Part shown: piece after piece, positions 4,610 to 37,381 of the stretch
How the letters are laid out: every line of letters begins with the position of its first letter
Position numbering within the stretch: the first letter of the stretch is position 1
Assembly (NCBI GenBank): GCA_028277825.1
Contig: JANQFN010000521.1
Coordinates: 1 to 37,381, forward strand
Direction: 5' to 3'
Length of the DNA: 37,381 nucleotides
Origin: Desulfarculaceae bacterium
GTDB lineage: Bacteria > Desulfobacterota > Desulfarculia > Desulfarculales > Desulfarculaceae
Position numbers and translations under genes: made by a program
The notes under the pieces: generated by a model
The model's database searches: none
Seen by the model: the letters and a program-made list of their open reading frames with translations, nothing else
Told to the model about the DNA's origin: nothing

Positions 4610-4821
4610 ACCCGCCTGTTTTCCGGCGCCGTTTTGAGGAACACCGGCTTGCCGTGGACTGGCGGGGCGTTTTTTGGCCGGATCATCCCCACAATATTAA
4701 GCCCCTGCCGGATGAAGTCTATGAAAAGGCCTATGCCGAGATGGCGGCCATAAGGGAAAGGGAATTGCGGCTGTTGGAGTTCCCGTTTTTGGCCAAGATC
4801 AATTGGCATTACGGGGTGTGA
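4606..4821 (+). CDS. small hypothetical protein, 71 aa
   Basis: I do not recognise this protein. ATG 4606 overlaps the previous stop by four bases (ATGA) with GGGGGTG upstream; a TTG at 4591 is a less likely start. The product begins MNPPVFRRRFEEHRLAVDW and is rich in Arg, Glu and aromatic residues. No motif or membrane segment is visible. Confidence 0.6.
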   Translation: MNPPVFRRRFEEHRLAVDWRGVFWPDHPHNIKPLPDEVYEKAYAEMAAIRERELRLLEFPFLAKINWHYGV

Positions 4822-4839
4822 GGTGGGCACGGTACGGGC

Positions 4840-5427
4840 ATGAGCAATCTTGGGTTTTCACATCGGGTCAATCCTTTGCCTGAGTCATTTGCCGATCAAA
4901 TACGAGATTGGCAGTCAAGGAACAAGGCGGCGGGATATCCTGAGGTCACGGGCAATGGCGGTGACCTTTCGGACTTGTTCGCTATCAATAAAAACGTAAA
5001 TAAAAAAATTAAGTTCACTCGCACCTCCGGTCTTCTCACTGAAAAGGATGCCCTTGTTGCGATTGAGGGGGATTGTGACGTATACGGCCACAGAAAGGGC
5101 GCGGAGGCCTGGCAGAAGGGTTTTGGGCAGGATGAAGTGACCCTGATGAACATGTGGGTCAATACCGGTGGCCCCAAGTGGACACCGGGTGCCACCACGC
5201 CAGCGCCGCGCTGGGAGCGCCACAACGTGGTGGTGTATTGGGATGACCCTGAGGACCCATTGGTTTTCAGCAATCCGTTTAAATTGCCTTTTGATCATGG
5301 AGATTTCCGCAAGCCCGTGAGGCTGAGCAAGATCGTGAAAAAGGTCAAGCTGCTGTATGCCTACAACCGGGAAAACCTCTGGGATATGTGGGGCGACTGG
5401 AGCCAGCCTGTGGAGGCGGAAGAATAG
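4840..5427 (+). CDS. hypothetical protein, 195 aa
   Basis: I do not recognise a family. The protein is soluble-looking and rich in Trp and Asp, with a central MNMWVNTGGPKWTPG region and the strand-like HNVVVYWDDPEDPLVF. A basic stretch RKPVRLSKIVKKVK precedes an acidic, Trp-containing end. Its position directly before the large terminase and its size leave a packaging or nuclease-accessory role possible, but nothing in the sequence shows that. GAGGTGGG lies about 12 bases before the ATG, a longer spacing than usual. Confidence 0.65.
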   Translation: MSNLGFSHRVNPLPESFADQIRDWQSRNKAAGYPEVTGNGGDLSDLFAINKNVNKKIKFTRTSGLLTEKDALVAIEGDCDVYGHRKGAEAWQKGFGQDEVTLMNMWVNTGGPKWTPGATTPAPRWERHNVVVYWDDPEDPLVFSNPFKLPFDHGDFRKPVRLSKIVKKVKLLYAYNRENLWDMWGDWSQPVEAEE

Positions 5428-5429
5428 GC

Positions 5430-6920
5430 GTGATCGATCTGCAAAACATAGATCAGATTGACGACGTAGACGAACTACGGCGGCTCTACCGGGAGGCGGA
5501 TTTTGGCGCCTTCAAAGCCGGCCAGGAGATCGAGCAGATGGAGCGGGAGAACGCCGTCATGTTTGTTCCCCGCCGCCCCAACCCCAAGCAGGGGGCCATG
5601 CTTGAAGTGTTCTTGAACTTCGCCAAAAAGGTTTTCGCCTACACCGGAGGCAACAGGTCGGCAAAGTCCACCACCGGCATATGGCTGACTATCGCCGTGG
5701 TTTGCGGTCATTATCCCTGGGACCCCTCCAAGATATTGCGCTTTCCCCACAAATACCCCCGAAAAGTGCGAATCGTTGGCCAGGACTGGGAAAAGCACAT
5801 TAAAACAGTGATTGAGCCCAAGCTGGTTGAGTGGTGGCCCAAAAGCCGTCCGGTGAAAAAAAAGAAAAATAACGTGGGCGTCAACGCCTTTTGGACCGAT
5901 GTCCTCACCGGCTCCACCATCGAGATCATGAGCAACAAGCAGGAAAGTGATTTATTTGAAGGCTGGGACGGCGATTTCATTTATTACGACGAGCCGCCCA
6001 AGCGGGACGTGCGCGTGGCCTGCGCCCGCGGGCTAGTTGACCGTCAGGGGCGTGAATACTTCGGCATGACCCTGTTGAAAGAGGCCTGGATTCACCGGGA
6101 GGTGATCAAGGCCAGGAACCCTGACGGCACGGTGGATGAAACCGTGTTTAACATCGAGGCCACCATTTACGACAACTTGGGCTACGGGGTGACCCAAGAG
6201 GGCATTGATCAGTTTGAAAAGACCTTAACCGAAGACGAAAAACAGGCCAGGCTTTATGGCAAGCCGTCCTTTCTTTCCGGCCTGGTCTACCCGCAATTCG
6301 ACAGGGACACGCATATCAAAGAACGCTTTGACGTACCCCTGGATTGGCTGGTGGACATTCAAATTGATTTCCATCCGGCCAAGCCCTGGGCGGTGAGTTT
6401 TATGGCCACCGACCCCCTGAATTTCAAATATGTGGTGGATGAAATCAAAATCAAATGCAACCCCAAGGTTTTGGTGGACACCATTGTGCGGCTGATCCGG
6501 GAGCGGCATTACCGGGTGGAGACCCCCATTCAGGTTGACCCGCTGGCCAAGGGAGACTCGGTACACGACTACACGGTCTTCGACAAGCTGGGGCGACATT
6601 TCAACGCCTTTGGGTATGTGGTGGGGGTGGGCAGCAAGGACAAGGACAATGGCATCGCCATGACCCAAGACTTGTTGATGACCGAAAACAAAATGCCCGC
6701 GCTTTTTTTCTTTCATGATTGCGTGCACACCATTGAGCAGGTGGAGAACTATACCTTTGACCCGGATACCCATTTGCCGGAGAAGGACAACGACGATTTC
6801 ACCGAGTGCCTTTACCGCAACGTTTTGCGGGACACGCAATGGTACGAGATGGAGGATGAAGACGACCGGCCCCGGCGCCGGCCCAGAAGCCGCGAATCGT
6901 TTAGCGCGGCCGGATATTAA
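5430..6920 (+). CDS. terL: terminase large subunit (packaging ATPase-nuclease)
   Basis: This motor pumps DNA into the prohead and cuts it. With GTG 5430 as start (GGAGGCGG upstream, just after the previous stop) the product has 496 residues, normal for the family. The Walker A-type loop GGNRSAKST is at about residues 73-81. The Walker B IYYDEP is at about 184-189. The C-terminal half should be the RNase H-like nuclease, with candidate acidic positions in QIDFHPAKP, QVDPLAKGD and NDDFTECLYR. The C-terminus is basic (RPRRRPRSRE). The portal gene follows at once, the usual packaging gene order. Confidence 0.92.
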   Translation: MIDLQNIDQIDDVDELRRLYREADFGAFKAGQEIEQMERENAVMFVPRRPNPKQGAMLEVFLNFAKKVFAYTGGNRSAKSTTGIWLTIAVVCGHYPWDPSKILRFPHKYPRKVRIVGQDWEKHIKTVIEPKLVEWWPKSRPVKKKKNNVGVNAFWTDVLTGSTIEIMSNKQESDLFEGWDGDFIYYDEPPKRDVRVACARGLVDRQGREYFGMTLLKEAWIHREVIKARNPDGTVDETVFNIEATIYDNLGYGVTQEGIDQFEKTLTEDEKQARLYGKPSFLSGLVYPQFDRDTHIKERFDVPLDWLVDIQIDFHPAKPWAVSFMATDPLNFKYVVDEIKIKCNPKVLVDTIVRLIRERHYRVETPIQVDPLAKGDSVHDYTVFDKLGRHFNAFGYVVGVGSKDKDNGIAMTQDLLMTENKMPALFFFHDCVHTIEQVENYTFDPDTHLPEKDNDDFTECLYRNVLRDTQWYEMEDEDDRPRRRPRSRESFSAAGY

Positions 6921-6952
6921 TAGGAGTTGGTGGCGGTGCATGGAGAGAGGCC

Positions 6953-8995
6953 ATGGCCTTTGATGTCCCCGAGGAAATAATCAATCTGGCGCCCATGGTC
7001 CAGGAGGTGGGCGATCAGGCCTTCCCATCCTACCTGGATGAAAAGACCCTGAAGACCGGCCCCGAGATTTTGCGCGAGATCGGCCAGTACGTGGTGGAGG
7101 AATTCGAGACCGACCTGGGCAGCCGCTCGGAATGGGAGGCCAACGCCGGGGCCTATCACCGGCTGTTCACCGGGCACATGCCGCCCAAAAACGAGCCCTG
7201 GCCGAACTGCGCGAACATCTGTTTGCCCCTGCTGACGGTCTCGGCCCTGCAGTTCCACGCCCGGGCCTATGACGCCCTGATCCCGCCCAAAGAGGTGGCG
7301 AAGGTGTATCCGGTCGGTGACGAGGACATACCTCGCGCCGAGCGGGTGGGCAAGTATATGGATTATGACATTCTCTACAAAATGCCCAATTTTGAAGAGG
7401 AAATGGACAAGTCCTTGATGCAGCTACCTTTGGTGGGTGACGTGCACCGCAAGACCTTTTGGGACCCGGAGCGCCAGCAAACGGTTTCGCAATATGTGTC
7501 CAGCATGGACGTGGTGGTGAACTACGGAGTGCGCGACATCGAGAACGCCGCTAGGGTCACCCATATATTGCGCTTGCGGGTGAGCGAGATACGCAAGCGG
7601 GTGGCCAAGGGAATCTATGTGCGCGAGGCTTGGGACCTGGACCCGGGCACCGAAACCCTGGACTCAGCCTTGCAGGATGAAGTGGACGACGCCCAGGGCA
7701 CCCAAGAAAGCGGTATCGAGCACGACCAGCCGCGCATCGTCTTGGAGCAGCACCGGGAGTGGGATCTGGACGGCGACGGCGTGGCTGAGCCCTATGTGGT
7801 GACCGTGGACTTTGAGACCGAGAAAGTGGTGCGCATCACCCCCAGGACCCACCAGGGCCAGGTGGTGGAATACTGGACCCACTATGTTTTCCTGCCCAAC
7901 CCGGAGGGATATTACGGCCTGGGCTTCGGCATCCTGATCAGGCACCTGAATGAGGCGGCCAACGGCATTATCAACGAGGTGATAGACGCCGGCTCTTTGG
8001 CCAACAAGCAAGGCGGCTTCATGCTTGGCCGGGCGGGCATGAAGGCCGGTGACCTGGAGTTTGAACACGGTGTTTATCAGAGCATCACTGCCAACGTGGA
8101 TGACATCCGCAAAGCCATTTGGAATTTCGACTTCAAGGGGCCCAACAACACCCTGTACGCGGTGCTGGGCCTGCTGTTCGAGTACGTGGAGCGGGTGAGT
8201 TCGGTTTCAGAGACCATGACCGGGCAGATGCCAGCCAGCGACACCCCGGCCACCACGGTGCTGGCCCTGTTGGAAGAGGGCCGCAAGGTGTTCAGCGCCA
8301 TCCACAAGCGCATTCACCGGGCGTTCAAGAAGGAACTGCAGAAGATGTACCGGCTCAACAGCATCTTTTTGGATGAAGAGCTGTATTTCCGGGTGTTGGG
8401 CCAGGGCAATGTGCCGGATATGAGCCAACCGGCGCAACCCATTGGCCGGGCGGATTTTGTAAGCGATGACAACGTGCAACCGGTAAGCGACCCCACCATC
8501 ATCAGCCGGGCTGAGAAGGTGGCCCGAAACCAAGTGCTGGTGCAGGACGTGCGCTCCAATCCCCTGACCGCCAACAACATGGAGGCCAACTACAAAGCCA
8601 CCATGCGGCTGTACAAGGCCCTGGATGTGGAGAACGCGGAGGAGCTTTTGCAGCCGCCCCCGCCGCCGCCAGACCTTAGCCCGGAGGAAGAAAACGCGGG
8701 ATTTTTTATGGAGCAACCGGCCAACGTGTTGCCCCAACAGGATCACGCTTGGCACCTGGAGATGCACCGGTCCTTCCGGGGAGACCCCATCGAGGATGCC
8801 GAGGGCAACATGGTTGGCGAACGCAAGGAAGACCGGCTGTTCAGGGAGCTTACCCCGGAGGGCCGCAAACTTTTAGACCAACATATCCAGGCCACGGTGG
8901 CGGCCCTGTACCTGGCGGCCAAGGACAACGAGAAAAAAATGGTCAAGGCCGCCGTGATGGGGCAGGGGCCCCGGCTGGCGACACCCGCGCAATAG
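6953..8995 (+). CDS. portal protein, podovirus-type
   Basis: The portal forms the dodecameric ring at the capsid vertex through which DNA enters and leaves. The 680-residue length matches large podovirus portals. Support comes from its place right after the large terminase and from typical stretches: NCANICLPLLTVSALQFHAR, then ARAYDALIPPKEVAKV near residues 100-120, and LNEAANGIINEVIDAGSLAN near 330. A run of six prolines (LLQPPPPPPDLSPEE) lies near residue 565. The C-terminus is helical and charged, as in portals with a barrel domain. ATG 6953 is preceded by GGAGAGAGG. Confidence 0.88.
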   Translation: MAFDVPEEIINLAPMVQEVGDQAFPSYLDEKTLKTGPEILREIGQYVVEEFETDLGSRSEWEANAGAYHRLFTGHMPPKNEPWPNCANICLPLLTVSALQFHARAYDALIPPKEVAKVYPVGDEDIPRAERVGKYMDYDILYKMPNFEEEMDKSLMQLPLVGDVHRKTFWDPERQQTVSQYVSSMDVVVNYGVRDIENAARVTHILRLRVSEIRKRVAKGIYVREAWDLDPGTETLDSALQDEVDDAQGTQESGIEHDQPRIVLEQHREWDLDGDGVAEPYVVTVDFETEKVVRITPRTHQGQVVEYWTHYVFLPNPEGYYGLGFGILIRHLNEAANGIINEVIDAGSLANKQGGFMLGRAGMKAGDLEFEHGVYQSITANVDDIRKAIWNFDFKGPNNTLYAVLGLLFEYVERVSSVSETMTGQMPASDTPATTVLALLEEGRKVFSAIHKRIHRAFKKELQKMYRLNSIFLDEELYFRVLGQGNVPDMSQPAQPIGRADFVSDDNVQPVSDPTIISRAEKVARNQVLVQDVRSNPLTANNMEANYKATMRLYKALDVENAEELLQPPPPPPDLSPEEENAGFFMEQPANVLPQQDHAWHLEMHRSFRGDPIEDAEGNMVGERKEDRLFRELTPEGRKLLDQHIQATVAALYLAAKDNEKKMVKAAVMGQGPRLATPAQ

Positions 8996-9004
8996 GAGGG
9001 CGAA

Positions 9005-9238
9005 GTGGTGGAAACCAGGATTGATGTCACCCCGGATGAGTGGAAAGAGTGGCGGAGCATGCCGCAGACCAAGGAGATGATCGGCAGGCTCTACGGGCTG
9101 CGGCAAAGCAAAATGGACGGCTATGTGAACCAGCCCCGCGAAAAGTGGCGCGCCCTATTGGATGAGTGCACTGGCATAGCTGAAGCGATCCATTTGGCTG
9201 AGAACCTGCACAAGGAGGCGGCAAGTGGCGGAGGTTAA
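9005..9238 (+). CDS. small conserved head-module protein, 77 aa
   Basis: No named family is recognised. It starts at GTG 9005 or at the adjacent GTG 9008, both suitably placed after AGGAGG (8994-8999). The product is helical, with DVTPDEWKEW followed by MIGRLYGLRQSKMDGYVNQ. Small proteins of this shape often lie between portal and scaffold genes in podoviruses. The 3' end overlaps the GroES-like gene by 14 bases. Confidence 0.62.
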   Translation: MVETRIDVTPDEWKEWRSMPQTKEMIGRLYGLRQSKMDGYVNQPREKWRALLDECTGIAEAIHLAENLHKEAASGGG

Positions 9239-9554
9239 GTTCAAGCCCATAGACGTGAAGGCTGAGATTGAGGCCTGCAAGCTGGAGCCTTATGGCCGGC
9301 GCCTGGTGGTGGTGGAGCGGGAGGTGGAGCAAGTGGGCTCCATCATCGTGGCCGAAACTTCCAAGGAAATGCAGACCAACACGGGCTACGTGGTGGCCTG
9401 CGGCGAAGACGTGGACCAGTGGGTACAAGAGGGCAACCTGGTCTACTACGGCCGGTATTCGGGCATGTGGGCCACCATCGACGGCCGCAAATACCGGATC
9501 ATGAACGATGAGGACATTCTGGGCAAGATCAAGGACCCGGACATGGAGTTCTAA
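9225..9554 (+). CDS. GroES-like co-chaperonin
   Basis: The 109-residue product follows the Cpn10 pattern: LEPYGRRLVVVEREVEQVG at the N-terminal strand, then SIIVAETSKEMQTNTGYVVA (the region of the mobile loop and following strand). WVQEGNLVYYGRYSGMW comes next, and the C-terminal end is RIMNDEDILGKIKD. Known phage co-chaperonins (T4 gp31 is the model) cap host GroEL to fold the major capsid protein. Its place between portal and scaffold supports that role here. GTG 9225 follows AAGGAGG (9212-9218). The mobile loop looks short compared with GroES, and dependence on host GroEL is inference. Confidence 0.8.
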   Translation: MAEVKFKPIDVKAEIEACKLEPYGRRLVVVEREVEQVGSIIVAETSKEMQTNTGYVVACGEDVDQWVQEGNLVYYGRYSGMWATIDGRKYRIMNDEDILGKIKDPDMEF

Positions 9555-9566
9555 GGAGGTGTGCGT

Positions 9567-10583
9567 ATGAGTGGCGAACAGCAACCAGAAATTGAGGTGC
9601 AGACCCCGCCCCCGGCGCCAGACCAGCAGGTGGAGGTGCAAACCGAGGAACTGCCCCCGGACCCCGGGCAGGATGAAGACAAGCCGGAACAGCCGGGCGA
9701 CGGCCCGCAGTCGGACCACCCCAGGTTCAAGAGCGTCTATGGCCGCATGAAGGGGGCGGAGGCCAAGGTGGAGAGCCTGGAGACGGAAATCGCCGGTCTC
9801 AGGGACACCATGAGCGGTATGAGGGACCACAACCAGAAGTTGTTCGAAAGCATGGAGCGCACCACCACCCAGGCGGTGGACGCGGTCACCACCTTGGCCC
9901 AGGGGCAGCAGCGCGACGAGCAGGCGGACAAGATTGAGAGCATGCAGACCCGGCTGGGCGAACTGGAGGTCCAGAAGGTCAAGGCCAAGGAAGACCTGGA
10001 CTATTCCAGGGAGGTGGATATCGAGCGGGATATCCGCAAGCTGGAGTTCGATATCCGGGTGGCCCAGGCAGAGGCCGTGCAACCCCCGCCCCCGGCCCAG
10101 CCCCAGGGGCAGGGGCAGGGGCAGCAGCCCCAGGGGCCCAGCCCGGAGTTCAAGGGGGCGGCTGACAAGTTCATAGCGGAGACTGAGTGGTTCAACCCGC
10201 CCGAGGATGGCAGTGCGCCCGATGCCATGACCGCTTACGCCACCAATCTGGACATATCGTTGTCCGCGCACCCGGAGTGGGCTGAAAGACCGGTGGCCGA
10301 ACGCTTCCAGGAGGTGAAGAGGTTGACTGAGGAAAAATTTGGCGTGAAGCCCCAGGACCCGCCGCCGGCCGCCCCCGCGACGCCGGACCTTAACAACCCG
10401 CCACCCCCGGCCGCGCCCAGCGCTCCGGCAAAACCCGCGGCCCCAGCGGTGGAGCCCGGCAATTTGGGCAGCCCTCAGGGTCCGGTCAGGGTCACCCTGA
10501 CCGCCGAAGAGCAAAAGGTGGCTCGGGGGTTCGGGATGTCTGAACAGGAATATGCCAAGCAAAAAGCCGCTGTGGAGCGGTAG
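9567..10583 (+). CDS. capsid scaffolding protein
   Basis: Start ATG 9567 lies 6 bases after AAGGAGGT. The 338-residue product has the usual scaffold make-up: an acidic Pro/Gln-rich N-terminus, a long coiled coil (about residues 55-170), a Gln/Gly/Pro linker (QPQGQGQGQQPQG), a helical part and an Ala/Pro linker. The C-terminus VTLTAEEQKVARGFGMSEQE is of the sort that contacts the capsid protein. Scaffolds guide prohead assembly and then leave or are cleaved. It lies between portal and capsid as expected. There is no sign of a fused protease. Confidence 0.78.
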   Translation: MSGEQQPEIEVQTPPPAPDQQVEVQTEELPPDPGQDEDKPEQPGDGPQSDHPRFKSVYGRMKGAEAKVESLETEIAGLRDTMSGMRDHNQKLFESMERTTTQAVDAVTTLAQGQQRDEQADKIESMQTRLGELEVQKVKAKEDLDYSREVDIERDIRKLEFDIRVAQAEAVQPPPPAQPQGQGQGQQPQGPSPEFKGAADKFIAETEWFNPPEDGSAPDAMTAYATNLDISLSAHPEWAERPVAERFQEVKRLTEEKFGVKPQDPPPAAPATPDLNNPPPPAAPSAPAKPAAPAVEPGNLGSPQGPVRVTLTAEEQKVARGFGMSEQEYAKQKAAVER

Positions 10584-10592
10584 GAGGCTGAA

Positions 10593-11201
10593 ATGACAGA
10601 AGAAATCAACGGCAGCCAAACGCCAGGAACCGATGATCAGCAGGCGCCCCCCGCGCTGGCCCCCGTCACTCATTGCCAGGGCACCAAGCGGGACGGTAAG
10701 CCGTGCGGCTCCACTAGGCTGGTTAAGGGCACCCAATTTTGTTATCCGCACTTGCCAAAGGACCACCCGCTCAAGCAAAAGCGCGGCGGGCCCATAACCG
10801 ACGAGCCCGAGCCGGAGTCGTTCGACGCCACCAGGCCCTGGCAGCCGGCGTCCATTCTTCACGTGACCAACAAGGACAAGAACTACACCTATTACTGGTG
10901 CAGAACGGACCTGTTGGAGAAAAAGCTGGCCGAGGGCTGGGAGACCGTGAAGAGCAAGGCCGGGGCCGAGGCTCCCAAGCGCACCCTGATGGACGGCACC
11001 AAGCTGACCGGTTTGGTGCAGAAGCGCAATCTCATTCTGGTGCGCATGCACATGTCCCGCAAAGAGGCCCGGGAAAAGTATTTCGCCGGCCTGACTGATG
11101 ACAACGTGGGCCGGTCTGTTAAGGAGCTTGAGAACGCTTCATACGACCCGGACAAGCAAGAGCAGATGGCCTACGGCGAAGTGAAGATCAAGGTGGGGTA
11201 G
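10593..11201 (+). CDS. zinc-finger-like protein of the head module, 202 aa
   Basis: ATG 10593 follows AGGAGG. Residues about 28-54 read CQGTKRDGKPCGSTR, then TQFCYPHLPK, a C-x9-C-x11-C-x2-H knuckle. It resembles the short 'C...T..G..C...C..H' domains found in many phage and bacterial proteins. The rest holds a WCRTDLLEKKLAEGWETVK segment and a basic helical C-terminus. The role is unknown. The place between scaffold and capsid suggests an assembly or minor virion protein. The promoter-containing gap follows. Confidence 0.65.
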   Translation: MTEEINGSQTPGTDDQQAPPALAPVTHCQGTKRDGKPCGSTRLVKGTQFCYPHLPKDHPLKQKRGGPITDEPEPESFDATRPWQPASILHVTNKDKNYTYYWCRTDLLEKKLAEGWETVKSKAGAEAPKRTLMDGTKLTGLVQKRNLILVRMHMSRKEAREKYFAGLTDDNVGRSVKELENASYDPDKQEQMAYGEVKIKVG

Positions 11202-11223
11202 AAGGCATGAAATAAAAAATTGC

Positions 11224-11263
11224 TTGACATATTTTTTTGCCTTCTGGTATAGGTTAATTCAAT
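11224..11263 (+). promoter_or_regulatory. promoter P2 of the capsid operon
   Basis: TTGACA at 11224-11229, 18 bp spacer with a T7 run, TATAGG at 11248-11253, continuing as TATAGGTTAATTCAAT to 11263. Fifteen of these 16 bases and the spacing equal those of P1 at 2524. It stands directly before the leader of the decoration and major capsid genes, which need strong expression. Confidence 0.65.
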
Positions 11264-11437
11264 AGTTAGTCATAGTTTTCTGCTATGGCTATCAATATCC
11301 GCCCGCCAGGGCGCTCGGCATTGGCCGCTCGGCTTTCAGGCCGCACATCTTTCAGCCTTTCAGGCTGCTCGGCATTCAGGCCGCACAATTTCCCAAGAAA
11401 AAACGATGCCTTGGCATCTTACTTCTAGGAGACCGAT
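11264..11437 (+). promoter_or_regulatory. structured 5' leader with repeats
   Basis: This is the untranslated region between P2 and ATG 11438. It has a hairpin AGTCATAG (11268-11275) / CTATGGCT (11283-11290). It also has two copies, 40 bases apart, of a 20-mer differing at one base: CTCGGCTTTCAGGCCGCACA at 11328-11347 and its near copy at 11368-11387. Between them CAGCC-TTTCA-GGCTG can form a small stem. No gene is seen here. A role in mRNA stability or late-gene control is possible. Confidence 0.5.
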
Positions 11438-11950
11438 ATGGCCAATACCGACGCTCCGATGGGATTTTGGCCGATCCGCCATTTGTGCGGCGGCGAAATT
11501 CGCCTGTCGGAACACATCTGTACCACCAGTGCGGCCATTTTTAAGGGCGATCCCTTGAAGGTGGTGGCGGGTGGGACCGTAGAAGTCGCGGCCGCCGACG
11601 ACGGACTAATCGTCATCGGCGTGGCCGCTGAGTACGTCGCGTCAGCCGCCGCCGGGGACACCGTAAAGGTGTGGGACGATCCCAACATTGTCTTTGGGGT
11701 CCAGGCAGATTCTGGCACCTCCCCTGCGGCCACCGACGTGTACAACACCGCCAACTTCATTACCTACGCCGCCGGCTCCACAACCACTGGCCTTTCCATT
11801 ATGGAACTGGATGCCAGCGACATCGGAACCGGCGCCCAACTCAAAATCCTTGGGAAAATTCCCGACCCCGACAACGTTTGGGGTGAGCATGTGAACCTTG
11901 AGGTTGTGTTCAATGAACACTTCCTCAAGGCCGCGGTTGCGGGGGTGTAA
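11438..11950 (+). CDS. capsid decoration-like protein, 170 aa
   Basis: The product begins MANTDAPMGFWPIRHLCGGE and is Ala/Gly/Thr-rich with beta-type periodicity. This matches small head-stabilising (decoration) proteins encoded just before major capsid genes. It contains repeated short strands such as GVAAEYVASAAAGDTVKVW and ends with LEVVFNEHFLKAAVAGV. It shares the capsid transcript from P2, two bases before the capsid ATG. AGGAG lies upstream of the ATG. The assignment rests on position, size and composition. Confidence 0.65.
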   Translation: MANTDAPMGFWPIRHLCGGEIRLSEHICTTSAAIFKGDPLKVVAGGTVEVAAADDGLIVIGVAAEYVASAAAGDTVKVWDDPNIVFGVQADSGTSPAATDVYNTANFITYAAGSTTTGLSIMELDASDIGTGAQLKILGKIPDPDNVWGEHVNLEVVFNEHFLKAAVAGV

Positions 11951-11952
11951 TC

Positions 11953-12849
11953 ATGGCTAACACTGGCAATTTTGCATCCCTGCTGGAACCAGGCCTGCGC
12001 AAGATATACGGGGAGTCCTACCGGCAGTACCCCAGGGAGTACACCAAGGTGTTCAGCCTGGACACCTCCACCCGCGCTTTTGAAGAGGACCAGGGGATCA
12101 CCGGCCTGGGGACCGTGCCCGAAAAGGCCGAGGGCAAGAGCATCAGCTACGACGACCCCCTGGAGGGCTATCTCAAGCGGTACACCCACACCACCTACGG
12201 TTTGGGGTTCATGGTGACTCGGGAGATGTTCGAGGATGACCAGTACCGCAAGATGCGGGCCATGCCCAAGGCCCTGGGCCGTTCGGTGCGCCAGACCATC
12301 GAGGTCTTGGGCGCCAACCACTTCAACCGGGCCTTTAACAGCTCCTATACCGGCTCCGACGGCGTTGAGATGTGTTCGGCGGTTCACCCCCTGGTGGGCG
12401 GCGGCACCTTCGCCAACGAGCTGAGCACACCGGCGGACCTGGACATCACCAGCTACGAGCAAGCCTTGATCGACATCCAGGCCTATGTGGACGACCGCGG
12501 CTTGAAGATGTTGTGCCGTCCCCAGAAGCTGGTGGTACACCCGGACAACCTGTTCCAAGCCCAGATCATCTTGAAGTCCGAGCAACTGCCGGACACCGCC
12601 AACAACGACATCAACCCGGCCGCGGGCACCATGAACGGCGGGATCGTGGTCATGCACTGGCTTACCGACCCCGATGCCTGGTTCATCACCACCGATTGCC
12701 CCAACGGCCTCAACTGGCTCTGGCGCCGCAAGCCCGAATTCACCCGGGACAACGATTGGGAAACCGAGAACGCGAAGTTCAAGACGACCTTCCGCGCTTC
12801 CAGCGGTTGGACCGATCCCCGGGGCGTGTTCGGCAGCCCGGGCGCCTAG
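11953..12849 (+). CDS. major capsid protein (HK97-fold type expected)
   Basis: The 298-residue protein sits where the major capsid belongs, after scaffold and decoration genes and behind the strongest promoter. Typical capsid stretches are LLEPGLRKIYGESYRQYP at the N-terminus and YGLGFMVTREMFEDDQYRK. ANHFNRAFNSSYTGSDG and LLVHP-like QKLVVHPDNLFQAQI follow. The C-terminal region WRRKPEFTRDNDWETE followed by KFKTTFRASSGW is also typical. The series resembles the Mu gpT-like capsid group. No protease domain is present. The gene ends just before a strong hairpin. Confidence 0.85.
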   Translation: MANTGNFASLLEPGLRKIYGESYRQYPREYTKVFSLDTSTRAFEEDQGITGLGTVPEKAEGKSISYDDPLEGYLKRYTHTTYGLGFMVTREMFEDDQYRKMRAMPKALGRSVRQTIEVLGANHFNRAFNSSYTGSDGVEMCSAVHPLVGGGTFANELSTPADLDITSYEQALIDIQAYVDDRGLKMLCRPQKLVVHPDNLFQAQIILKSEQLPDTANNDINPAAGTMNGGIVVMHWLTDPDAWFITTDCPNGLNWLWRRKPEFTRDNDWETENAKFKTTFRASSGWTDPRGVFGSPGA

Positions 12850-12867
12850 AAAAAGGCAAGCGGCTTA

Positions 12868-12892
12868 GCCGGGGCCCCGCGCGGGCTCCGGC
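12868..12892 (+). terminator. GC-rich hairpin after the capsid gene
   Basis: GCCGGGGCCC (12868-12877) and GGGCTCCGGC (12883-12892) pair at 9 of 10 positions around a CGCGC loop. No T run follows, so full termination is unlikely. It could stabilise the capsid mRNA 3' end or reduce readthrough into the next gene. Confidence 0.5.
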
Positions 12893-12920
12893 AAGCCCAT
12901 TCTCACAAGGAGACGATTGA

Positions 12921-13856
12921 GTGCCTAAGAAAGCGCAAATGAGCAACTATCCCAACGGATTCCCCGACGGTGTGACCATCCGGGGAGTTCCCATTCTCAA
13001 CCTGCATCCCGGCAACGTGTTCTGGGTGTCCTCTGACACCGGATCGGATGCCGGCAACCGGGGCTGGGGCAAAAACCCCCGAAAGCCCTTCGCCACCATC
13101 GACTATGCGGTGGGCAGGTGCACCGCTTCCAAGGGGGACATCATCGTGGTGATGCCCGGCCACACCGAGACCATTTCCAGCGCCACCGGCTTGGTGATGG
13201 ACGTGGCCGGAGTGCAGGTGATCGGCCTGGGCCTGGGCTCGCTGATGCCCACCCTGACCCTGGACACCGCGGCCGCCGCCACCGTAAGCATTACGGCGGC
13301 CGACTGCATGTTCGCCGGCGTCAAGCTGTACTCGGACTACACCGGGGGCCTGACCGCGGGCGTCACCGTGGGGGCCTCGGCTGACGGCCTGGTGCTGGAC
13401 GGCATCGTGTTCACCGAGGCGACCAACGCCAAGGAATACCTGATCGGCATCAGCATCGCCGCGGCCTGTGCGGATGTGGTGATCCAGAACTGCCGTTACT
13501 ACGGCACCGCCGGAGGCTCCACCACCAGCATCATCGCGGCCGCCGGCGCGGCCAATAACCTGGTGATCCAGGACAACTACCTGCATGGCGATTGCAGCGC
13601 GGCCGCGGTCAAGCTGGACGGCGCCGCTTCCAGCGATCTACAGGTCCTGGGCAACCGGGTGATCAACATTGACACCGCCGCCGGCCTGGGCATCGCCGCC
13701 CATGCCTCCAGTACGGGCATGATGGCCGGCAACTTCGTAACCAACCTCAAGGACACCGTGGTTGGCCTGTCCGGCGCGGGCATGGCCTTTCACGAAAACT
13801 ACGGCAGCAACGCCCTTGGTGCTTCCGGCATCATCTTGCCCGCCGTGGACGTTTAA
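12921..13856 (+). CDS. right-handed beta-helix virion protein
   Basis: GTG 12921 follows AAGGAG. The 311-residue product shows parallel beta-helix hallmarks. Near residues 36-60 comes VSSDTGSDAGNRGWGKNPRK followed by PFATIDYAV, as in pectate-lyase-like phage proteins. Successive rungs with stacked Val/Ile/Asn follow (ADVVIQNCRYYG, NNLVIQDNYLHG, SDLQVLGNRVINI, STGMMAGNFVTNL). Such folds occur in tailspikes and head fibres, often acting on or binding polysaccharide. No catalytic residues can be assigned. Its place next to the capsid gene, away from the fibre genes, suggests a head-attached fibre. Confidence 0.72.
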   Translation: MPKKAQMSNYPNGFPDGVTIRGVPILNLHPGNVFWVSSDTGSDAGNRGWGKNPRKPFATIDYAVGRCTASKGDIIVVMPGHTETISSATGLVMDVAGVQVIGLGLGSLMPTLTLDTAAAATVSITAADCMFAGVKLYSDYTGGLTAGVTVGASADGLVLDGIVFTEATNAKEYLIGISIAAACADVVIQNCRYYGTAGGSTTSIIAAAGAANNLVIQDNYLHGDCSAAAVKLDGAASSDLQVLGNRVINIDTAAGLGIAAHASSTGMMAGNFVTNLKDTVVGLSGAGMAFHENYGSNALGASGIILPAVDV

Positions 13857-36325: not shown

Positions 36326-37381
36326 TCACTCCATCCTTCTAAGTCTTCCTGCCGCCTGGTAAATGTCCCTAGACGGCTGCGCCTTGTGCTGCATGTAGCG
36401 CTCGAACGCCTTGTTGGTGGCGTGCATGGTGCCGCTGTCGCGGAGTTCGTCTTTGGTAAAGTGCTCCCCAAGAGCCGACGCGGTCGAATGCCTGGTGCCC
36501 CCGTAAAGGTCCACGCCCTTGACGCCCACCTCTTTGCAGGCGGCTATCCAGTTGCGCCAAAACATTTCCCTTGCAAACTGCTTTCCATTCGAGTGCCGAA
36601 AAAAGAACAGGTCCGGGAAGCCCCGGGGCAGGGAGCGGTATAGCTCAATGTCCTCATCCAGCATGGGAACCAGCTTGGGGCTTTTTTCCTTTGGTGAGGG
36701 GATCACCAGAAATCCGTTTACATCGATGTCCCGCTCCCTGAGGGCGCGCATTTCGCCGGGCCGGATGGCTATATAGTCGGCCAGCCACTTTATGCCGATC
36801 CATATCCGGGGGTTGCGCTCCCAGGTCATTTCCTTGATCTTGGCCAGCACCCTGGCTTGGGTCTGCATGTCAATGATGTTCCGCCAGCCAAGCTCATAGT
36901 TGATTTCTGGCATCTCGGGAGCGGGAATGCCCTCGCGTTTCTGGAGCCAGCCGAAAAACTGGCCGAGGGTGGCCCTGGCGTTGAACCGGGTTTTGTCCCC
37001 GACCTTCATAGCCAACAGCCAGTCCTCTATTTGGGCATACTGGATCAGCTTGCAATTGGTCTGGCCCCACTCAACAATGGCCTTGTCCATGTCGCGCTTG
37101 ATGTCGCGATAGGAGTTGGGCTTGACCTGCTGGGCCTTGACCTTGAGCCACTTTTTAGCCTGAGTTTCAAAACCAAGGGGAAAGTTGGTCCGATAGTCCC
37201 GGGGGTCGAACAGGCCGCGGTCATCGTCGCAGCGACAAGTGTTTAAAAAGCGGGCGGCCTGGGCGTAGTCCTTGAAACGCTTCATCACCTTACGGCCGTA
37301 TTGGACACGGAAGCGGCTGGCTCGAACCTCGGGGTGGTCTGGGCATAGAACGGCTTGCTTGCGCTCATTGTGCTGCAGGAT
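36326..37381 (-). CDS. int: tyrosine recombinase / integrase, 5' end outside window
   Basis: It should recombine attP with the host tRNA. Counting from GTG 37288, an arm-binding and core-binding region (about 1-140) is followed by the catalytic domain. There, RPGEMRALRERDID supplies Arg I (R176), GGTRHSTAS Arg II (R266), MHATNKAFERY the His (H289) and the Tyr nucleophile (Y298). The usual first His of HxxR is replaced, as in some phage integrases. The frame stays open and coding-like for 31 codons upstream to the window edge (CPDHPEVRASRFRVQYGRK), so the true start is probably beyond it. Its likely target site lies 0.7 kb downstream. Confidence 0.9.
   Translation of the reverse strand: MLQHNERKQAVLCPDHPEVRASRFRVQYGRKVMKRFKDYAQAARFLNTCRCDDDRGLFDPRDYRTNFPLGFETQAKKWLKVKAQQVKPNSYRDIKRDMDKAIVEWGQTNCKLIQYAQIEDWLLAMKVGDKTRFNARATLGQFFGWLQKREGIPAPEMPEINYELGWRNIIDMQTQARVLAKIKEMTWERNPRIWIGIKWLADYIAIRPGEMRALRERDIDVNGFLVIPSPKEKSPKLVPMLDEDIELYRSLPRGFPDLFFFRHSNGKQFAREMFWRNWIAACKEVGVKGVDLYGGTRHSTASALGEHFTKDELRDSGTMHATNKAFERYMQHKAQPSRDIYQAAGRLRRME

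Follow-up and report, generated by a model that had tools for sequence, protein, structure and literature searches.

The sequence analyzed here (hereinafter, the window) is a stretch of 37,381 nucleotides of contig JANQFN010000521.1 from the Desulfarculaceae bacterium assembly GCA_028277825.1. It includes a phage head operon on the forward strand, in which the genes follow in the order: terminase large subunit, portal, a 77-aa frame, a GroES-like protein, a scaffold-like protein, a 202-aa protein, a decoration-like protein and the major capsid protein. The terminase large subunit (5388-6920) was recognized through PHROG 10250 (E = 2.4e-4) and the portal protein (6953-8995) through SU10_portal (E = 9.3e-14) and the portal family PHROG 1216 (E = 9.1e-22). 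The 77-aa open reading frame (ORF) that comes next (9005-9238) has no family match in Pfam or PHROG; a small ORF between portal and GroES is also present in most of the relatives. Downstream of the GroES-like gene (9225-9554), an acidic protein is encoded at 9561-10583 (GTG at 9561, with a probable ATG start at 9567), and its position, its acidity and weak matches to a coiled-coil type (E = 0.0016) and to the end of the Mu I protein (E = 0.015) suggest a scaffold role. The 202-aa protein (10593-11201) has a counterpart of similar size at this place in relatives; the 170-aa product of 11438-11950 is a putative head decoration protein (PHROG 37556, E = 8.6e-21); and the major capsid protein (11953-12849; 298 aa, 33.4 kDa) matches Phage_capsid_4 (E = 6e-19) and Mu-like_gpT (E = 5e-9).

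Matches to adaptor and stabilization proteins in the window indicate a short-tailed phage. A terminal overlap of the kind that a circular phage genome gives was sought in the contig and not found. A scan of positions 4800-13000 for sigma-70 promoters returned matches no commoner than chance, and an Rfam search of the window yielded no match. The decoration and capsid genes are preceded by an untranslated stretch (11202-11437), in which a TTGACA-like box lies near 11222. The stretch also contains 25-nt direct repeats that are imperfect (GGCYGCTCGGCWTTCAGGCCGCACA), two copies of which are 92% alike, and has no match in Rfam; it may provide the capsid gene with a promoter and leader of its own. 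On the minus strand, an antisense open frame of 674 aa (9027-11051) runs across the GroES and scaffold genes and most likely owes its existence to high GC content and strong codon bias.

The GroES-like frame starts with a GTG codon preceded by an AAGGAGG box, and its start overlaps the end, including the stop codon, of the 77-aa ORF. The GC content at its third codon positions (0.84) is similar to that of the portal (0.80) and capsid (0.87) genes, compared with 0.61 and 0.32 for the two alternative frames. The encoded protein (109 aa, 12.5 kDa) matches the Pfam family Cpn10 (PF00166) with E = 1.1e-12 and 48.2 bits, above the curated cut-off of 21.1, as well as the PHROG 3188 co-chaperonin GroES (E = 1.1e-14) and the sequences of solved Cpn10 structures (down to E = 2.4e-9). 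Many GroES models match it too, all of them below the NCBIfam cut-offs for bacterial GroES (at best, 45.6 against 109 bits). An origin by bacterial contamination was rejected, given the location of the gene in a phage operon and a codon use common to its neighbors. Thus, judging from the sequence, the product of 9225-9554 is a member of the Cpn10 family and a phage co-chaperonin.

The structural model agrees with this assignment. An AlphaFold2 monomer model built with 60 relatives reached a mean pLDDT of 89.1 and a pTM of 0.83, and its 35 best matches in the PDB are all Cpn10 chains, namely GroES, with gp31 of phage T4 (1g31, E = 3.2e-3) included, so that a Cpn10 fold is virtually certain. The mobile loop, which was located approximately at residues 33-53 (9321-9383) by alignment to the host GroES and by low pLDDT, contains the block 41-50 that is modeled with low confidence (pLDDT 58), and Ile-Ile-Val occupies the place of the GroEL-binding tripeptide, aligned to Ile-Ile-Ile in the host protein; this tripeptide is hydrophobic in 101 of the 114 phage copies that we collected. 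The mobile-loop segment comprises 11 residues and so is hardly longer than the 10 typical of bacterial GroES (20 of 21), whereas most phage copies (103/114) have 14; the nearest relatives of the window copy have 10 (L121) and 12 (L037). A 14-residue loop thus is a common, not a defining, trait of the head-linked Cpn10 proteins that resemble those of pelagiphage HTVC023P. The roof segment (approximately, residues 61-72; 9405-9440) is shortened to 9 residues, compared with 17 in 20 of the 21 bacterial proteins and about 18 in most other members of the phage group, and the model contains no strands between residues 60 and 71; by alignment, the short roof is a trait of the window copy and a few others and not of the phage group. 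What the window copy does share with the group are three residues, namely, Trp66 (82 of 114 phage copies and none of the 21 bacterial ones), Asn94 (101/114 and 0/21) and Asp95 (106/114 and 1/21). The original prediction, made from the letters of this DNA, had placed a Cpn10-patterned protein at 9225-9554, between portal and scaffold, with a loop region unlike that of bacterial GroES, and had named a fold other than the Cpn10 barrel as grounds for giving it up. The exact ORF and the Pfam match, the flanking portal and scaffold-like genes and the roof and mobile-loop lengths all bear it out, and the predicted monomer fold is a Cpn10 barrel.

Two of the phage copies lack the usual Gly-Gly-hydrophobic tripeptide pattern. 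The GroES of Alcaligenes phage QDWS535 (L009:3531-3872) has a rearranged mobile loop, ALGIDLSAS, and another copy (L038:7728-8072) carries Trp-Glu-Arg (WER) in place of the tripeptide; these proteins possibly use an unusual GroEL partner or have altered or lost docking.

The bacterial host has a chaperonin operon of its own. The only GroEL gene in the genome, including the window, lies next to a groES gene on a different contig (C210), behind a CIRCE element with a single mismatch, so that the phage copy is not adjacent to groEL, and no CIRCE element was detected in the window. This host GroES shares with the window protein the Cpn10 fold, the hydrophobic tripeptide and 38% sequence identity. 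A second host Cpn10 gene, unlike the operon copy and away from groEL, was found on contig C15 (L002:1483-1782).

To assess how regularly such a gene accompanies this head module, relatives of the module were collected through the capsid protein, its most conserved member, hence blindly with respect to GroES, from IMG/VR, the GTDB genomes and phage records; to these were added phage records whose GroES or portal genes are related. A GroES profile, constructed over three rounds, was then run against all reading frames. In 116 loci, the sequence reaches 3.2 kb or more upstream of the capsid gene; these loci are related to one another, such that the counts do not represent independent events, and 114 of them carry a Cpn10 gene upstream of the capsid gene on the same strand. 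Apart from the window, these are 40 of the 40 IMG/VR contigs and 61 of the 63 GTDB contigs, neither set being circular, and 12 of the 12 phage records, a partly circular subset because 6 of them entered via the GroES gene. In the two loci without the gene (L169 and L177), runs of N lie exactly at that place, and L169 retains both ends of the GroES gene. Ten members of the group, including the most divergent ones, were scanned against Pfam and all pass the Cpn10 cut-off; 88 of the copies are less than 80% identical to each other. Neither the window GroES nor its portal, used as a single query against viral and genome contigs, retrieved any related loci; the nearest genome relatives of the module (L117 and L121) come from metagenome-assembled genomes named Deltaproteobacteria. 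In Caulobacter phage GB2A, gp089c (L010:8930-9361), which is annotated as a hypothetical protein, is a GroES of the same family (Pfam Cpn10, E = 3.5e-9), and its counterparts in phages RW and KcrB are named GroES.

The arrangement of the genes is conserved as well. The GroES gene lies 1.8-3.1 kb from the capsid gene (median, 2.08 kb; 2,366 bp in the window), and the capsid protein is about 300 aa long throughout the group. The gap from GroES to the next gene is short (median, 15 bp), whereas that between portal and GroES varies from 4 to 10,109 bp, indicating that the gene belongs to the block from scaffold to capsid rather than to the portal. Given that nearly all relatives possess the same gene, its placement is a feature of the whole group and not a peculiarity of the window phage. 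The coupling extends to every one of the 17 phage records in which capsid identity to the window protein is 37% or more. Three more distant capsid relatives (35, 29 and 26% identity) still have a Cpn10 gene, located beside a scaffold-like gene in the first of these and elsewhere in the genome in the other two. In an archaeal virus, assigned to Methanomicrobiales (BK063670.1, vir526; L198:1027-1383; capsid identity, 29%), the Cpn10 gene precedes the terminase gene, and in MW202601.1 (L202:13699-14163; 26%), it lies outside the head operon, near the gene for a single-stranded DNA-binding protein. As a control, we took viral loci that encode a Mu-type capsid protein, using as the query that of a Klebsiella prophage, a distant homolog (23% identity) of the window capsid protein; none of the 79 loci contains a Cpn10 frame, in a set that is dominated by close relatives and in which many loci are short, with 57 of the 79 reaching 12 kb. 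The presence of Cpn10 in almost every locus with the window-type capsid and in no locus with the Mu-type capsid fits a co-chaperonin dedicated to the head. The same results refine the original suggestion of a dedicated capsid-folding cap made together with portal and scaffold: a phage Cpn10 in the head operon with a conserved linkage stands, but the gene goes with the block from scaffold to capsid and not with the portal.

In a phylogenetic tree, the 114 phage copies and the 21 bacterial GroES are kept apart, with none misplaced, albeit with weak support for the split (0.27). Across 90 loci, GroES distances correlate with those of portal (r = 0.86), capsid (r = 0.83) and scaffold (r = 0.83), which implies that the gene was largely inherited with the head module. 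The partial correlations (0.19 with capsid, 0.21 with portal and 0.29 with the decoration-like gene) single out no particular client. When 297 genomes of the phylum were searched with the window GroES, the matches listed outside its own locus scored like ordinary bacterial GroES, at 44 bits or less, and the 21 copies that were aligned are those separated from the phage copies in the tree. A groS match attributed to an Acinetobacter 'phage', MD-2021a, was rejected because the contig is a bacterial groSL contig.

The closest known systems are pelagiphages of the HTVC023P type and their relatives, including HTVC023P itself (gp36), HTVC027P (gp55), CRP-901 and CRP-902 (gp61), DSL-LC04, Pag-Yong1, QDWS535 and Caulobacter phage RW. 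In these phages, as in the window, the portal gene is followed by one or more small ORFs, GroES, a scaffold-like gene, two further genes and the capsid gene; some of them have additional genes behind the portal. Their capsid proteins are 38-49% identical to that of the window and their portals 25-33%; their GroES proteins, however, are only 26-34% identical to the window copy, which differs from them in its shorter roof and mobile loop. Unlike these phages, that of the window carries an integrase-like gene (36326-37288). GroES is one of the 13 core genes of the HTVC023P-type pelagiphages (PMC9599517) and is drawn in the genomes of the Roseobacter phages CRP-901 and CRP-902 (PMC10149686). The GroES of Pseudoalteromonas phage B8b (ORF19) is likewise phage-encoded and located among structural genes; B8b, however, is a siphovirus, whose GroES gene is found two genes before a 254-aa structural gene and the tape measure gene and not next to portal and scaffold genes (PMC4294664).

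T4 gp31, which replaces GroES and is required for the folding of the capsid protein gp23 (PMC3012670), offers the functional parallel. Gp31 and CocO of phage RB49 share with the window protein the Cpn10 fold, the lack of the roof loop, the provision of a (here, predicted) phage lid without a phage GroEL and the link to head assembly; a missing roof is a mark of gp31 (PMC6318259). A gp31 ortholog was nevertheless rejected as the identity of the window protein because no sequence match to gp31 was obtained by phmmer or by profile: the two proteins match in fold only, at 17% identity. They may differ, furthermore, in the mobile loop, a long one being a gp31 trait, and they do so in the presumed client, given that gp31 serves a capsid protein of 56 kDa and the window capsid protein has a mass of 33.4 kDa.

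By analogy with gp31, we consider it likely that the window protein acts as a lid on the host GroEL in the folding of phage head proteins, most likely of the capsid protein. The protein would form a seven-membered ring that displaces the host GroES from GroEL, docking via the mobile loop, and the closed chamber would fold newly made head proteins, most likely the major capsid protein (33 kDa), while scaffold and capsid proteins are being made. The parts of this scheme differ in strength. The role of a GroEL lid is very probable, and head proteins are probable clients; the capsid protein, the likeliest client because it is needed in the largest number, is favored as the main one by a small margin. 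The Mu-type gpT capsid proteins, which are distant homologs, manage with no phage co-chaperonin encoded close to the head genes, and this counts against the scheme. At 33.4 kDa, the capsid protein is well within the capacity of GroEL-GroES, so that the cage-size reason invoked for gp31 cannot apply. Tentatively, and with somewhat less confidence than an even chance would warrant, we suggest that the phage lid provides client specificity, whether by the fit of lid and client, by the timing of release or by a link to the scaffold, instead of a larger cage, and that the head module requires it.

Alternatively, the phage gene might offset a late shortage of host GroES and serve all GroEL clients, its place in the head operon merely ensuring late expression. 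During infection by the related phage HTVC027P, the transcript levels of chaperones and folding catalysts of the host fall (PMC12753301), so that a lid of its own would be useful to the phage on either reading; the host groESL operon is preceded by the heat-shock element CIRCE, which the phage gene lacks; and gp31 can serve general Escherichia coli clients as well (PMC6318259). A general need, however, would not follow the capsid type, whereas the gene tracks a single capsid and portal module across hosts of many phyla and is absent from the 79 loci with the other capsid, which makes a general supply of GroES an unlikely explanation. It is more improbable still that the protein acts outside GroEL, for instance as a platform for assembly or, at the portal vertex, as a symmetry adaptor, or that it becomes a virion component. 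The retention of the hydrophobic tripeptide in most copies and the low-confidence loop in the model are what docking to GroEL requires, and in the table for phage B8b, by our reading, peptides are listed for other structural ORFs and none for GroES (PMC4294664). The near-obligatory presence of the gene beside portal and scaffold, the ring-forming fold and the erosion of the tripeptide in a few relatives would, on the other hand, suit a structural part. Finally, a passenger gene (moron) acquired from a host, with no part in head assembly, is conceivable insofar as Cpn10 genes are present in nearly all bacterial hosts and the window protein resembles the host GroES as closely as it does other phage copies, but is largely excluded by the near-universal retention of the gene at a fixed place, and is made very improbable also by the separate tree group of the phage copies, the phage-type residues and the co-inheritance with the head genes.

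The status of GroES as a core gene of HTVC023P-type phages has already been stated; the part worth following is the tie to the head module. In the open literature, with most subscription journals outside the search, we found no discussion of a group-wide tie of GroES to one capsid type or of the small client. A study of chaperonins in virioplankton by Marine et al. (ISME Journal, 2017; cited in PMC7785012) may already cover part of this.

The rationale given for T4 gp31 is cage volume, gp23 being too big for GroEL-GroES, and a group of phages with small capsid proteins is therefore a natural test of specificity against volume. The gp31 homologs of T-even phages, whose sizes are comparable, favor the gp23 of their own phage, and subtler features may matter (PMC3012670), and the small-capsid group looks like a clean case for this view; were the client-specificity reading true, the accepted reason for which phages bring their own GroES would change. 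The group includes a pelagiphage type that has been called the most abundant known in the ocean (PMC12753301) and has cultivable members, such as Caulobacter phage RW, Alcaligenes phage QDWS535 and the Roseobacter phages. With the coupling extending across the group, the GroES of such phages would count as a head-assembly gene and should not be tallied as a stray host gene.
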